A stretch of DNA of 64,000 nt from Microlunatus capsulatus (GTDB taxonomy: Bacteria > Actinomycetota > Actinomycetes > Propionibacteriales > Propionibacteriaceae). The stretch spans positions 3,782,001 to 3,846,000 of the forward strand of contig NZ_JAGIOB010000001.1 in assembly GCF_017876495.1 (NCBI RefSeq), written 5' to 3'. The notes beneath the pieces are model-generated. The model was given only the letters and a program-made list of their open reading frames with translations, searched no databases and was not told the origin of the DNA. Shown here one piece after another: positions 1 through 23,554 of the stretch (position 1 is its first letter; every line of letters starts with the position of its first letter). Position numbers and translations under genes: made by a program.

Positions 1-1789
1 GGAAGCCCCGCCGGCCCTCGGCGGCGTGGAAGGTCGCCCCGCCGTCGACCGAGACCTCCACGGCGGCGACGGTGCCGCCGACGTCGCTGGCCGTGCCGGT
101 GACGGTCACGAGGTCTCCAGCGCCGACGCTCGAGCCCGACGCGGGCGAGGTGATGGTGCTGGTCGGCGCCGTCGTGTCGGTGGTCTGCACCGCCGGGGCC
201 AGGTCGCCGGCCCGGGTGGTCGCCTGCGCGCCCATGTCGGCGAGCAGGTTCAGCGTGGCCTGGCGGATCCGCGGGTCGGGTGGCTGGATGTCGAGGCCGT
301 CGTGGTTGCTGTCGAGGCCCCACGCCCACTGCACGCTGCCGCTGGAGAACACGAGGGCCCCGCTCGGAGCCCGGTACTGGGTCAGGTGGTGGGTCGTGGT
401 CCCCGCGACGACGGTGTTGCCGAAGTCGGTGAGCAGCTCTGCGGTCGGACCGGTGGTGGTGGACAGACGCATCAGCCCGGCCGGTCGGAAGCCGTTGTCG
501 ACGTCCTCGTCCGACTCGTAGCCGACGGTGTGGGCGGCCAGGGTGGCGGTATCACCCGCCGGCAGCGAGGCGAGGCTGGTGCTCCGCCACAGCCGGAGCT
601 TCCCCTCCTCGGCGCTGACCTTGATGGCGAGGTCGACGGAGTTGGCCTGGTACTGCGTGCCGAGCAGGCTGTTCTCCGGGCCGCCGCCCAGGTCGCCGAA
701 GCGCGGGTCCCGCCAGGTGGCGGTCGGTGTCACCGGGTCCAGTGCGGTGACCGGACCGTTGTCCTTGTTGGCCCAGGTGTCCTTGTAGCAGACGAGCGTG
801 CGGTTCGGCGTGGCGCTCCCGTCCTGCGACGGCTCCCAGCGGGTCTTCCAGTAGACGTTGTTGCCGCCGAAGAAGGCGAGGTTCACCTTGGCGTCACGGG
901 CGTTCTCGACGTTCTTGCGCTGGTCCGCTGACCAGTACTCGTCGTGCCCGACTGAGAGGAACACCTTGTGCTTGGGGATCAGGGCCGGGTCGACGGAGGT
1001 GTCCTGGCCGGAGACGTAGGAGACGTCGAAACCGTTCTGCTCCAGGTAGCGGATCGTCGGGTACTCGTTGGAGAAGAGGAAGTCCCGGCCGGCGCCGACG
1101 TCCCGCGTGCTGAACGGACGGTTGTAGCTCGCCTTGAACGACCGGCCGTTGGGGCCGCCGTAGTAGAAGTTCGAGCCGCCGTAGGTGTTGTAGGCCTGCC
1201 AGGTCGGGTCGGAGGTCTGGAAGAGCACCTGCGAGGTGTTCCCGTCCTTGCGCACGATGAAGGGGATGTGCGAGCTGCCCCGGCTGCCGTCGGCCCGGAC
1301 GAGGTGGGCGATGTACACCCCGGACACAGCGCTGGTCGGCACGTTCCAGGTGGCCGACACGGCCCACGTGCCGCAGTCGTAGACCTGCGTGGCGTCGTTC
1401 GTGGCGCAGGCGACCTGGTTCTGGGGCAGCGGTGCCGAGGGCCGGATGGTGTCGACGAGTCGGGCGCCCTTGCCCTGGTAGTAGCCCAACCGGTAGATCG
1501 AGATGGAGTAGTCGCGGGAGTCGGTGTCGATCTTGAACTGGACGGGGGAGCCGACGTTGACGCTGATCCTCGTCGCGAAGCCCTGGATCGAGTCGTCGCC
1601 GCGGCCGTCGACGTCCCAGATCTCGCGGTCGGTGCCCAGCTGCTCGTTCTCGCACACGACGACGTTGCCGGTGCAGGCGGCCTGCGCCGTCGACGGCACG
1701 GCGACCAGGGCGGCGGCGAGCAGCGCGAGCCCGATCATCGCGACCAGGAAACGGCGCGATGCGGCCTGCAGGTGCAGCTGTGCGGTCAT
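1..1789 (-). CDS. Secreted N,N-dimethylformamidase beta-subunit-like protein, C-terminus cut by window edge
   Basis: About 596 codons are visible; the gene runs off the left edge, so no stop is present. The ATG at 1789 follows a GGGGGAAG ribosome site. Residues 1-38 form a Sec signal peptide ending STAQA. The body matches the large beta subunit of N,N-dimethylformamidase: SIYRLGYYQGKGAR near residue 95, and the conserved GHDEYWS at 281-287 followed by FFGGNNVYWKTRW. From about residue 545 a threonine/serine linker leads into a bacterial Ig-like domain (TSTITSPASGSSV) that continues past the edge. Dimethylformamidase hydrolyses DMF to dimethylamine and formate, but most actinobacterial secreted members are uncharacterised and the substrate here is unknown. 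No small alpha subunit is seen nearby. Confidence 0.85.
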   Translation of the reverse strand, partial: MTAQLHLQAASRRFLVAMIGLALLAAALVAVPSTAQAACTGNVVVCENEQLGTDREIWDVDGRGDDSIQGFATRISVNVGSPVQFKIDTDSRDYSISIYRLGYYQGKGARLVDTIRPSAPLPQNQVACATNDATQVYDCGTWAVSATWNVPTSAVSGVYIAHLVRADGSRGSSHIPFIVRKDGNTSQVLFQTSDPTWQAYNTYGGSNFYYGGPNGRSFKASYNRPFSTRDVGAGRDFLFSNEYPTIRYLEQNGFDVSYVSGQDTSVDPALIPKHKVFLSVGHDEYWSADQRKNVENARDAKVNLAFFGGNNVYWKTRWEPSQDGSATPNRTLVCYKDTWANKDNGPVTALDPVTPTATWRDPRFGDLGGGPENSLLGTQYQANSVDLAIKVSAEEGKLRLWRSTSLASLPAGDTATLAAHTVGYESDEDVDNGFRPAGLMRLSTTTGPTAELLTDFGNTVVAGTTTHHLTQYRAPSGALVFSSGSVQWAWGLDSNHDGLDIQPPDPRIRQATLNLLADMGAQATTRAGDLAPAVQTTDTTAPTSTITSPASGSSVGAGDLVTVTGTASDVGGTVAAVEVSVDGGATFHAAEGRRGF

Positions 1790-19386: not shown

Positions 19387-22300
19387 GTGGCCAAGGTCCG
19401 CGTCTATGAGCTCGCGAAAGAGCTCGGAGTCGAGAGCAAGACCGTCCTCACGATGTTGAAGGACATGGGCGAGTTCGTCCGCTCCGCCAGCTCCACGGTG
19501 GAACCCCCCGTGGAGCGGCGGCTCAAGGAGAAGCTGAGCAACGGCTCCTCCGCCGGCAAGGAGCCTGCCCGTCAGGCCCCCGCCGCCACCCGCAACCCGG
19601 CCCCGGCCGGCACCCGGCGTCCGCCGGTGCCCAGCCCGGGCCCCGTCCGGCCGAACCCGGCCTCGACAGCACCTGCTGCCCAGGCCCGGCCGAGCACCCC
19701 GGCCCCGGCCGCCCCGACCGCGTCGACCCCCGCTCCGGCGGCTCCCGCGACCCCGGCGCCGACCGCCTCCACCCCGGCCCCGACCGAGGCGCCGCGCACG
19801 ACGCCCCGTCCGGGCACCGGCACGCCCGCCCCCGGTCCGGCCAGCCGCACCCCGGCCCCGGGTCCGCGTCCGAGCACGCCGCGGGCACCCGGCCAGCCGC
19901 CGGCCCGCCCGCAGTCCGGCGCACCCGGCGCGGGTCAGACCGGTGGCACGAGCACCGGCCAGCCCGGTGCCCCGCGCACCGGTCAGCCCTCCGCCCCGCG
20001 CACCGACGGCCAGGCCGGCACCCCCGGCCCCCGTCCCCGCCCGGGTTCCACGGGTGGCCTCCCCGGTGCGGGCGCTCCCGGCGCCCGGCGTCCCGGTGGT
20101 GCCCCCCGTCCGGGCAACAACCCCTTCTCGCCCTCCCAGGGCATGGGGCAGGCCCGTCCGCCGCGTCAGGCCCCGGGTGCTCCCGGTGCTCCTGAGGCCG
20201 CTCGTCCGGGTGGTCCCCGGCCCCCGGCCGGCCGTGGCGCCCCCACCCCGGGCGCGCGTCCCGGTGTGCCGGGCATGCCCCGGCCCAACCCGGCGATGAT
20301 GCCCCGGCAGAGCTCCGGCCAGCTGAGCGCTCCCGGTGCGGCCGGCCCCCGTGGCCGCGGCGCACCCGCGGGTGGTCGTGGCCGTCCCGGTGGCGGTGGT
20401 CCTCCTGGTCGTACCGGTGGTCCCGGTGGCGGTCCGCCGCCCGCGGGTCGCGGTGGCCGTGGCGGTCGCGGCGGCACCCAGGGTGCCTTCGGGCGCGCCG
20501 GTGGGCCCGTCCGTCGTGGTCGCAAGTCGAAGCGTCAGCGTCGGCAAGAGTTCGACCAGATGCAGGCGCCGGAGATCGGTGGCGTGCGTGTCCGCCAGGG
20601 CGACGGGTCGACCGTCCGCCTGGCCCGTGGCGCGTCGCTGACCGACCTGTCGGAGAAGATCAACGTCGACGTGTCGAACCTCGTCCAGGTGCTGTTCAAC
20701 CTGGGCGAGATGGTCACCGCCACCCAGACCGTGTCCGAGGACACGCTCCAGGTGCTGGCGACCGAGCTCAACTACAAGATCGAGGTCGTCTCCCCCGAGG
20801 ACGAGGACCGCGAGCTGCTGGAGAGCTTCGACATCGAGTTCGGCGAGAACGAGGGCGGCGAGGACGAGCTGGCCGCGCGCCCGCCGGTCGTCACCGTCAT
20901 GGGTCACGTCGACCACGGAAAGACCAAGCTGCTCGACGCGATCCGCAAGACCAACGTGGTCGCCGGCGAGGCCGGTGGCATCACCCAGGCGATCGGCGCC
21001 TACCAGGTGGCCACGGAGGTGGACGGCGAGGAGCGCAAGATCACCTTCATCGACACCCCGGGCCACGAGGCGTTCACCGCCATGCGTGCCCGTGGTGCGA
21101 AGTCGACCGACATCGCGGTCCTGGTGGTCGCGGCCGACGACGGCGTGATGCCCCAGACCATCGAGGCCCTGAACCACGCGCTGGCGGCGGAGGTGCCGAT
21201 CGTCGTGGCGGTCAACAAGATCGACCGCGAGGGCGCCGACCCGACCAAGGTCCGCGGCCAGCTGACCGAGTACGGCCTGGTGCCCGAGGAGTACGGCGGC
21301 GACACGATGTTCGTCGACGTCTCCGCGATCACCGGCGTCGGCCTCGACGCGCTGCTCGAGGCGGTCATCCTGACCGCCGACGCGGCGCTCGACCTGCGGG
21401 CGAACCCGGACATGGACGGCCAGGGTGTGGCCATCGAGGCCCACCTCGACAAGGGCCGCGGCCCGGTCGCCACCGTCCTGGTCCAGCGCGGGACGCTGCA
21501 CGTCGGCGACTCGATCGTGGCCGGCACCGGGTACGGACGTGTCCGCGCCCTGCTCGACGACCACGGCCAGAACGTGGACGAGGCCCCGCCGTCGTTCCCG
21601 GTCCAGGTGCTCGGCCTGACCGCCGTCCCCGGCGCCGGCGACAGCTTCATCGTCGTCGACGACGACCGGATGGCCCGGCAGATCGCCGAGCGCCGGGCGT
21701 CCCGGCTCCGGATGGCGGCCCAGGCGGCCGGCACCCGGCGCAAGACGCTCGACCAGCTGTTCGACCAGCTCGAGAAGGGCGAGGACTCCGAGCTCCGCCT
21801 CATCCTCAAGGGCGACGGCGCTGGTTCGGTCGAGGCCCTGGAGGACGCGCTGGCGAAGATCGACGTCGGCGACGAGGTCAGCCTGCGGGTCATCGACCGC
21901 GGTGTCGGTGCGATCACCGAGACCAACGTCAGCCTGGCGGCGGCGTCGAACGCGGTCATCGTCGGCTTCAACGTCCGCCCGCAGGGCAAGGCGACGGAGA
22001 TGGCGGACCGCGAGGGCGTCGACATCCGGTACTACTCGGTGATCTACTCCGCGATCGACGAGATCGAGGCCGCGCTCAAGGGCCTGCTCAAGCCGATCTA
22101 CGAGGAGGCCGCGCTGGGCCAGGCGGAGATCCGCGAGATCTTCCGCAGCTCCCGCGCCGGCATCATCGCGGGCTGCATGGTCACCGGTGGCACCCTGCGC
22201 CGGAACTCGAAGGCCCGGCTGCTGCGGGAGGGCGTCGTCATCAACGAGACGACGATCGCCTCGCTGCGGCGGGAGAAGGACGACGCCACCGAGGTGCGGG

Positions 22301-22398
22301 AAGGGTTCGAGTGCGGTCTCACGCTCGCGAACTACTCCGACATCCGCGTGGGCGACGTCATCGAGACCTTCGAGATGCGCGAGAAGGCTCGCAGCTGA
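19387..22398 (+). CDS. infB: Translation initiation factor IF-2
   Basis: IF-2 is the GTPase that brings initiator tRNA to the 30S subunit. 1003 residues from the GTG at 19387, behind AAGGAGAGCA. The IF2-N domain is at residues 1-55 ([21 protein letters not shown]). Residues about 60-375 are a disordered stretch of Pro, Ala, Thr, Gly and Arg that becomes Arg-Gly rich toward its end. The GTPase domain starts near residue 500 with [22 protein letters not shown] and NKID; domains II, III and IV follow. The 222-nt leader (19165-19386) contains no gene I can support. The disordered part uses CGT and GGT codons far more than its neighbours. Confidence 0.97.
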
Positions 22399-22421
22399 CC
22401 CGGTAGGGAGCACAGTGCGCA

Positions 22422-22453
22422 GGAGGGCGGGGTCCACACGGACCCCGCCCTCC
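22422..22453 (+). terminator. Strong hairpin terminator after infB
   Basis: GGAGGGCGGGGTCC, the loop ACAC and GGACCCCGCCCTCC form a perfect 14-bp stem 24 nt after the infB stop. No U-run follows. Confidence 0.7.
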
Positions 22454-22487
22454 GGCGTCTCCCCGGGAGGCGACGTCCACCATCACG

Positions 22488-22502
22488 TCACCTCCGAGGT
22501 GA
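22488..22502. promoter_or_regulatory. Palindrome before the Fic remnant
   Basis: TCACCTC-C-GAGGTGA is a perfect 15-bp palindrome 14 nt before the ATG of the dead Fic gene. It may be the old operator of that gene. Confidence 0.3.
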
Positions 22503-22515
22503 TGATCATCGGCGG

Positions 22516-23054
22516 ATGACAGCGTCGGGTGCGGCGGGCTGGCCGGCGGTCGGCTGGGAGCGGCTGACCCGGGACAGCGGCTCCGGCGCCCCGACCCGGC
22601 GACCCGGCCGGACCAACGCCGGCCTCGTGGTCGCCGACGTGCACGCCCTGCGCTCGGCGCTCGACCTGGCGCAGGACCTCTCGGCGGGCACGGTGCTGGC
22701 CCTGCACCGCGCCCTGCTGGCCGACGGCGACGCCTGGGCCAGCACGGGGAGGTCCGGGCGCGCAGCCCAGGCCATCAGGTCCTCCACAGCCCGGGGACCA
22801 GGGCGGCCCGCGGCGCCATGTGGTCGGCGCCCACGGGGCTGGTGGCCGAACGGCCGATCCACACCGGACCGGTCCGCCAGCTGCCCACCGGGGTCGGCGT
22901 CACCAACGTGCACCGCCACCTCGAGCGGCTGAGCGAGGCGGGGGTGCTGACGCCGTTCCCGCTCCACCGGCGGGGGGCGGGCCTGGCGGGCCGACGAGGT
23001 GCTCGGGGCGCTCGACGCGTTCGCGGCCCGGCCGGGCGCCGCACGCGGTCCTGA
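22516..23054 (+). pseudogene. Fic-family protein remnant, active site lost and middle inverted
   Basis: The plus strand from ATG 22516 encodes a typical Fic N-terminal part: [21 protein letters not shown] and [15 protein letters not shown]. It then loses meaning until about 22896, where it resumes as a winged-helix C-terminus ([19 protein letters not shown]), then shifts frame to [18 protein letters not shown]. The segment between reads as Fic only on the minus strand (see the entry at 22735-22895). The HPFxxGNGR catalytic loop is absent from every frame, so AMPylation is impossible. Intact Fic proteins of this kind have about 370 residues, more than twice the sequence left here. It occupies the place where DUF503 often sits between infB and rbfA. 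Confidence 0.75.
22735..22895 (-). other. Inverted internal segment of the Fic remnant
   Basis: Read on the minus strand, 22891 down to about 22775 gives [19 protein letters not shown] and then [13 protein letters not shown], followed after a one-base frame change by [18 protein letters not shown]. These are the conserved Fic segments that lie between the N-terminal helices and the catalytic loop. The order of the pieces and the strand show that this segment has flipped relative to its flanks. Short inverted repeats, GACGCC at 22729-22734 and GGCGTC at 22896-22901, lie at the edges. The exact breakpoints are approximate. Confidence 0.7.
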
Positions 23055-23104
23055 CGTCCGGGGCGATGCGGCACAATGGAAGGCTGTCCGTCAGAGGAGG
23101 AACC

Positions 23105-23554
23105 ATGGCATCGCCCCGGGTGCTCAAGCTCGCCGACCAGATCAAGGTGATCGTGGCCGAGATGCTCGAGCGCAAGATCAAGGACCCCCGGCTGGGCTTC
23201 GTCACCGTGACCGACGTGCGGCTGACGGGGGACAGCCGCGAGGCGACCGTCTTCTACACCGTGCTCGGGTCCGCGGAGGACTCCGCCGGCACCGCCGCGG
23301 CCCTGACCTCGGCCACCGGGCTCATCCGCTCCCAGGTCGGCAAGCAGCTCGGGATGAAGTTCACCCCGACCGTCACCTTCGTGGCCGACGCGATCCCCGA
23401 GAACGCCCGGCAGATCGACGACCTGCTGCAGCGGGCCCGCGACGTCGACGCCCGGGTCGCCCAGACGGCGCACGGCAAGACCTACGCCGGCGACGAGGAC
23501 CCCTACAAGCACCCCGACGAGGACGACAGCGACGACGTGGACCTGGACCGCTGA
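23105..23554 (+). CDS. rbfA: Ribosome-binding factor A
   Basis: RbfA assists late 30S maturation. 149 residues from ATG 23105 with AGAGGAGG just upstream. The KH-like core shows [22 protein letters not shown] and [19 protein letters not shown]. The C-terminus is an acidic tail ([12 protein letters not shown]). The last codon and stop overlap the apparent start of truB. The nrnA-like DHH phosphoesterase gene that often separates rbfA and truB in actinobacteria is absent here. Confidence 0.96.

Follow-up and report, generated by a model that had tools for sequence, protein, structure and literature searches.

Remains of a fic gene between infB and rbfA of Microlunatus capsulatus, probably broken by a local inversion with deletion

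The region separating infB from rbfA in Microlunatus capsulatus contains a pseudogene of the Fic family that was most probably (roughly 0.93) produced by an inversion combined with deletion. It lies in a window of 64,000 nucleotides (the whole stretch analysed, G000:C1:3782001-3846000), taken from a genome assembled as a single contig of 4.41 Mb with an estimated completeness of 100%. The two genes are 706 bp apart, and in this interval three clear segments of a fic gene were recognised, one of them inverted, while the catalytic core was absent; the locus is a relic of a Fic/Fido family member and not a member itself. The features are listed below, G006 being a congener used for comparison.

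19387-22398, plus strand: infB, intact, 1003 codons (open reading frame list; 3' end matching infB of G006)
22417-22458, plus strand: strong hairpin, rich in GC, behind infB; candidate terminator (folding)
22483-22502, no strand assigned: palindrome remaining from the fic promoter, candidate operator, matching the consensus at 10 of 14 positions (as good a score in 2 of 300 control pieces from the window)
22516-22599, plus strand: N-terminal piece with the presumed former start codon, the weakest of the pieces (alignment to G006)
22598-22734, plus strand: Fic piece, G006 codons 116-156 and a few codons more (blastn, local alignment, profile)
22732-22889, minus strand: inverted block of ca. 150-157 bp, codons ca. 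165-215, with one frame break inside (alignments, profile)
22887-23054, plus strand: C-terminal winged-helix piece, codons ca. 347-402, with the original stop and one frame break inside (alignments)
23105-23554, plus strand: rbfA, intact (Pfam RBFA, 103.6 bits)

The sequence-only reading of this DNA had pointed to the same gap in relatives as the place where an intact copy might be found, and G006 indeed has, at the same site as the remains in the window, between infB and rbfA, a fic gene that is open over 401 codons (L041:4334-5539). Its product matched PF02661 (74.7 bits) and Fic_N (27.9 bits), together with a weak HTH_20 match (25.4 bits) falling below the cut-off of that family. The closest likeness is with class II Fic proteins having a C-terminal winged helix, represented by the solved chain 7cb8 (residues 9-400, E 4e-56) and SoFic 3eqx (E 9e-7). 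All the segments that define Fic/Fido proteins occur in order in the G006 gene, namely the alpha-helical N-terminal part, the WRTEPVWIG loop, the HPFx[D/E]GN[G/K]R motif (as HPFPDGNGR), and the winged helix. An N-terminal SSQIEN is also present, S97 and E101 being invariant in 14 sequences. In contrast to class II Fic proteins, the window copy lacks both the catalytic and the inhibitory motifs and is unable to make a protein.

Blastn comparison of window positions 22300-23200 with the infB-fic-rbfA region of G006 returned plus-strand blocks, a single reversed block (22722-22880, 72% over 160 columns), which matched in place with an E value of 3e-26, and a plus-strand block at 22890-23054 (77%). 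By local alignment, 22598-22720 on the plus strand corresponds to codons 116-156 of the G006 gene (91 of 123 positions identical, 74%), 22880-22722 on the minus strand to fic nucleotides 498-657 (115/159, the last dozen nucleotides lying beyond the break), and 22890-23054 on the plus strand to codon 348 through the stop (127/164, 77%); a weak plus-strand match joins 22540-22599 to codons 10-31. Thus aligned, the plus-strand Fic pieces follow one another in the right order, as had been read from the sequence alone, with the far N-terminal piece marginal. The accompanying claim that the middle of the gene reads only on the minus strand was upheld as well: aligned on the wrong strand, the inverted block scored 39, a background value, versus 135 as its reverse complement. 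Self-complementarity was absent, with background scores both for the inverted block (30) and for the G006 segment aligned to its own reverse complement (38).

Searches of the whole genome gave a similar result. The G006 protein retrieved three pieces at E 1e-3, corresponding to residues 118-159 (plus strand), 160-195 (minus strand), and 322-400 (plus strand). The Fic similarity expected on the minus strand was also recovered by a profile of 14 Fic proteins, which ranked this piece as the best match in the genome (E 9e-9), followed by plus-strand 22597-22731 (E 1e-7), a weak C-terminal piece (E 0.008), and a fourth weak match elsewhere, at 572246, to the winged-helix part (E 0.009). Pfam searches of five frames of the window taken singly detected no Fic match. 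The inverted block retains eight of the nine residues of WRTEPVWIG, which is invariant in 14 relatives. None of 500 Markov resamples and none of the other window pieces (0/473, 0/479, and 0/481) scored as high as the three main pieces. The N-terminal piece (22540-22599) is marginal, its DNA score being attained in 6 of 500 resamples and 12 of 475 real pieces, and its protein score in 2 of 1000 shuffles.

The pattern of mismatches with G006 bears on the age of this decay. Third codon positions differ at 20 of 53 sites in the inverted block (12 and 12 at the other two positions), and at 18/41 and 21/55 in the clear plus-strand pieces; mismatches in the N-terminal piece (5, 7, and 5 of 20 by codon position) have no such lean. 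Since mismatches favour third codon positions, the divergence from G006 probably accrued in large part before the gene ceased to code, and the collapse of the gene would be younger than the split of the two lineages.

Read by eye, the inverted block has its left break within 22732-22734, where GCC may belong to either side, and its right break within 22883-22889. Two to three codons (ca. 6-9 bp) are missing at the left junction relative to G006, in a loop whose length varies among relatives, while at the right edge ca. 390 bp containing HPFPDGNGR are missing before the C-terminal piece. Further upstream, the absence of codons 32-115 (ca. 250 bp) removes the Fic_N part and the SSQIEN inhibitory motif, and there are two frame breaks, one inside the inverted block and one inside the C-terminal piece. 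Neither the catalytic motif HPFx[D/E]GN[G/K]R nor an inhibitory motif of the class II kind, S-x-x-x-E-[G/N], is left in the fic remains. That the HPFxxGNGR core is gone, as initially claimed, follows from the lack of any PF02661 match across the genome, and the motif falls within the missing ca. 390 bp. The proposal of an inversion with at least one deletion remains the simplest history, but it has to accommodate two large losses (ca. 250 and ca. 390 bp) and two frame breaks.

Breakpoints are resolved to 3-7 bp, the sole intact gene found at the site being 72-77% identical. Microhomology is expected at template switch points; up to 3 bp (GCC) is possible on the left, and the right junction is not readable from a relative at this level of identity. 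The short GACGCC/GGCGTC repeats flanking the flipped part, to which the sequence-only reading gave weight, proved unremarkable, an inverted match of at least 6 bp occurring at 943 of 3000 random positions with the same geometry. Near the right break lies a 12-bp perfect palindrome (22865-22876); the window has 58 such palindromes, and this one is weak support at most.

To place the gene among relatives, rbfA was located in 56 of 57 genomes (own included) and 30 loci were fetched (own included), covering 18 of the 19 congeners. infB adjoins rbfA in 29 of these loci, the exception being a short G006 locus that is covered by L041, and a fic match in the gap was restricted to two of the 30, those of M. 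capsulatus and G006. Matches to PF02661 occur in 40 of the 57 genomes, with many relatives carrying other Fic genes elsewhere; the closest Fic within the genus (48% identical) belongs to G004, where it lies on a different contig from rbfA. Because the position is shared with G006, we infer an intact ancestral fic between infB and rbfA. This gene would have been gained in the common ancestor of M. capsulatus and G006 or lost elsewhere, gain being simpler. At E 1e-3, DNA of the gap found matches in 17 of 20 genomes; beyond M. capsulatus and G006, these matches were short, none better than E 1.6e-6, and were taken as background. At the edges of the fic insertion, the fic-less congeners G015 and G016 gave weak local alignments only. 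The gaps of G004, G009, and G010 (L059, L063, and L067) measure ca. 1.2-1.4 kb and contain nothing that matches the Fic protein of G006. Different genes may occupy this interval in other congeners, and the gap may be a tolerated insertion site.

The sequences bordering the fic remains were also compared. From 23062 onwards, 137 of 139 bases are the same as in G006 (blastn). The 43 bp ahead of rbfA (23062-23104) are almost identical in the two genomes, whereas about a quarter of the adjoining fic remains differ; these 43 bp are probably the rbfA promoter and leader. The hairpin behind infB had been described as a very strong terminator: its strength was confirmed by folding (-41.7 kcal/mol, z -5.95), but no T-run follows it in the window sequence. 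G006 has a comparable hairpin in the same place with TTTT after it (-65.6 for the stretch, z -6.80).

Reversed stretches were also sought more widely in the two genomes. Tiling 800 kb of the M. capsulatus genome against 800 kb of G006 left 562 kb in collinear blocks and 88 gaps. Five of these gaps, fic site included, contained a stretch that matched in reverse with an E value of 1e-8 or lower. Whereas the fic block has a self score at background (30 of 310), three of the remaining reversed stretches are partly self-complementary (self scores 76 of 138, 74 of 188, and 60 of 290); the fourth sits in a 35-kb unlike region. Among those gaps, pieces of one gene were recognised on both sides only at the fic site, and the compared part of the genomes gave no sign of a frequent inversion process. 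Outside the window, a stretch of ca. 145 bp (G000:C1:3926000-3926144) has the opposite orientation to its counterpart in G006 (C1:1435539-1435641) and is partly self-complementary; part of it also matches G006 at 1118371-1118489 (87%), and it may represent a dispersed repeat rather than an inversion.

Based on these comparisons, the ancestor shared with G006 would have possessed, in the infB-rbfA gap, a stand-alone fic gene, still intact, whose product ended in a winged-helix domain. In the window lineage, a local inversion of ca. 150 bp in place would have been joined to the ca. 390-bp loss that includes HPFxxGNGR, with roughly 6-9 bp lost at the left edge, and the further upstream loss of ca. 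250 bp together with two frame breaks would have completed the decay. An inversion in place is supported by the block being the missing middle of the same gene, with an identity to G006 (72%) near that of its neighbours (74% and 77%) and a third-position lean of its mismatches resembling theirs; moreover, no donor Fic copy exists elsewhere, since the genome contains no other Fic (PF02661).

As to how the inversion and the ca. 390-bp loss arose, the most likely route, tentatively and at somewhat under even odds, is a template switch in one step. From the arrangement, we infer a single event in which a polymerase would quit its template, copy the opposite strand backwards for ca. 150 bp, and rejoin the template ca. 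390 bp further on. Such an event has a parallel in the 1-3-2-4 template switch, described in the part of PMC7954356 available to us as the replacement of a longer stretch by its shorter reverse complement. Like that class, the window has a short block whose reverse complement now stands in its place between the two flanks, with net loss and with the replaced stretch as the template; the same structure results from end joining. In the same part of their text, the authors find it unconvincing, under their model, to explain large deletions by template switches, and disallow such cases. The microinversions of PMC8755829, as far as its available text describes them, are likewise short blocks reversed in place, but these measure 17-33 nt and have flanking inverted repeats, whereas the window combines a block of ca. 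150 bp and a loss of ca. 390 bp with no meaningful repeats. Both studies concern great apes, in contrast to the bacterial case reported here. With the flanking inverted repeat at chance level, repeat-driven switching is unsupported.

Nearly as likely as a template switch is a route through two double-strand breaks, in which fragments would be lost to resection and the middle one religated in flipped orientation by Ku and LigD; this route would leave the same dead gene and differ only in its path. The genome encodes Ku (183 bits) and a LigD_N protein (123 bits), and end joining agrees with the unequal junctions, one having lost a few bp and the other a long stretch; however, two close simultaneous breaks are required, and the junctions decide nothing. 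A sequence of independent steps, in which the gene was first killed by an inversion alone and the core and the N-terminal part were deleted afterwards, is rather unlikely, as it makes a coincidence of the 390-bp loss lying within a few bp of the inversion edge, although the gene went through several events in any case, given that neither the 250-bp loss upstream nor the frame breaks form part of the inversion. An assembly or sequencing artefact appears very improbable: the species is represented by a single genome without reads, but this genome is one contig of 100% estimated completeness, the inverted block is about as diverged from G006 as its flanks, and separate signs of decay occur in several pieces. 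Even less credit can be given to a programmed reversible inversion (phase variation), which the position of the block within a gene and its short inverted flanks might evoke, since the flanking repeats are at chance level and flipping the block back would yield no working gene, the core being missing and frame breaks lying inside and outside the block. Finally, long antisense frames do arise in GC-rich genomes, but chance antisense similarity in GC-rich coding DNA, with no inversion at all, was refuted by the E value of the reversed match (3e-26), by the resamples and real pieces (0/500 and 0/479 scoring as high), and by the self-complement control (38 for the G006 segment, 135 for the real match).

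Ahead of the remains lies a possible trace of regulation. A palindrome, TCACTTA-n4..6-TAAGTGA, scored at least 10/14 in 14 of 26 homologous loci encoding Fic proteins with a winged helix (Fic-wHTH), and in no same-locus control; its consensus was drawn by eye from L041, L100, L102, and L104, which leaves 10 of 22 loci that show it without having served to draw it, some of those 10 being close kin. L044 reaches 10/14, as do 10 of its 242 controls, and 11 loci have no palindrome. The sites are found at 22483-22502, at L041:4302-4321, and upstream of fic in L043, L085-L091, L094, L097, L100, L102, and L104. The distance to the start codon is 32 bp in G006 and 33 bp, to the presumed former start, in the window. 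A search for the perfect core in 10 genomes, picked for having a fic gene with such a site or as M. capsulatus and G006, found it at a single place in each of five, identical letter for letter to the site preceding the fic gene of that genome, and nowhere in the other five, whose sites are imperfect; a reversed-pattern control gave no match.

According to the available part of PMC9755527, CccR of Yersinia pseudotuberculosis, a class II Fic protein with a C-terminal helix-turn-helix, represses its own promoter through inverted repeats. CccR shares the Fic plus winged-helix/HTH plan with the proteins considered here, about half of which have the palindrome before the start codon, but its site is described there as two 10-nt arms 26 nt apart, whereas the present palindromes are compact, with 7-nt half-sites separated by 4-6 nt. 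Because this Fic-HTH protein represses itself through inverted repeats, self-repression is the likely role of the palindrome, which survives ahead of the dead fic gene as a candidate operator. It is doubtful that the full account holds, in which one template switch killed the gene (ca. 150 bp reversed, ca. 390 bp deleted) and the fic family acts as a self-repressing regulator with a single target, its operator outliving the gene. The label "toxin-like" given to the gene at first applies by family only.

Overall, the locus is a well-documented pseudogene. Both its family and the type of mutation that broke it were already known, and it mostly reflects ordinary gene decay. Literature searches found no work joining Fic, pseudogene, inversion, and AMPylation, and none joining intragenic inversions, invertons, and bacteria. 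The locus offers a clean bacterial example of a gene broken by a local inversion with deletion, for which a relative with the whole gene at that site serves as comparison. Pfam on single frames would have missed this gene, and its pieces were found by pairwise and custom-profile searches, so that wrecks of this kind may be under-counted. By the account in the available part of PMC9755527, nearly nothing is known of the biology of the Fic-HTH class, and the palindrome preceding about half of the Fic-wHTH genes provides a testable regulatory site for this class of Fic proteins.
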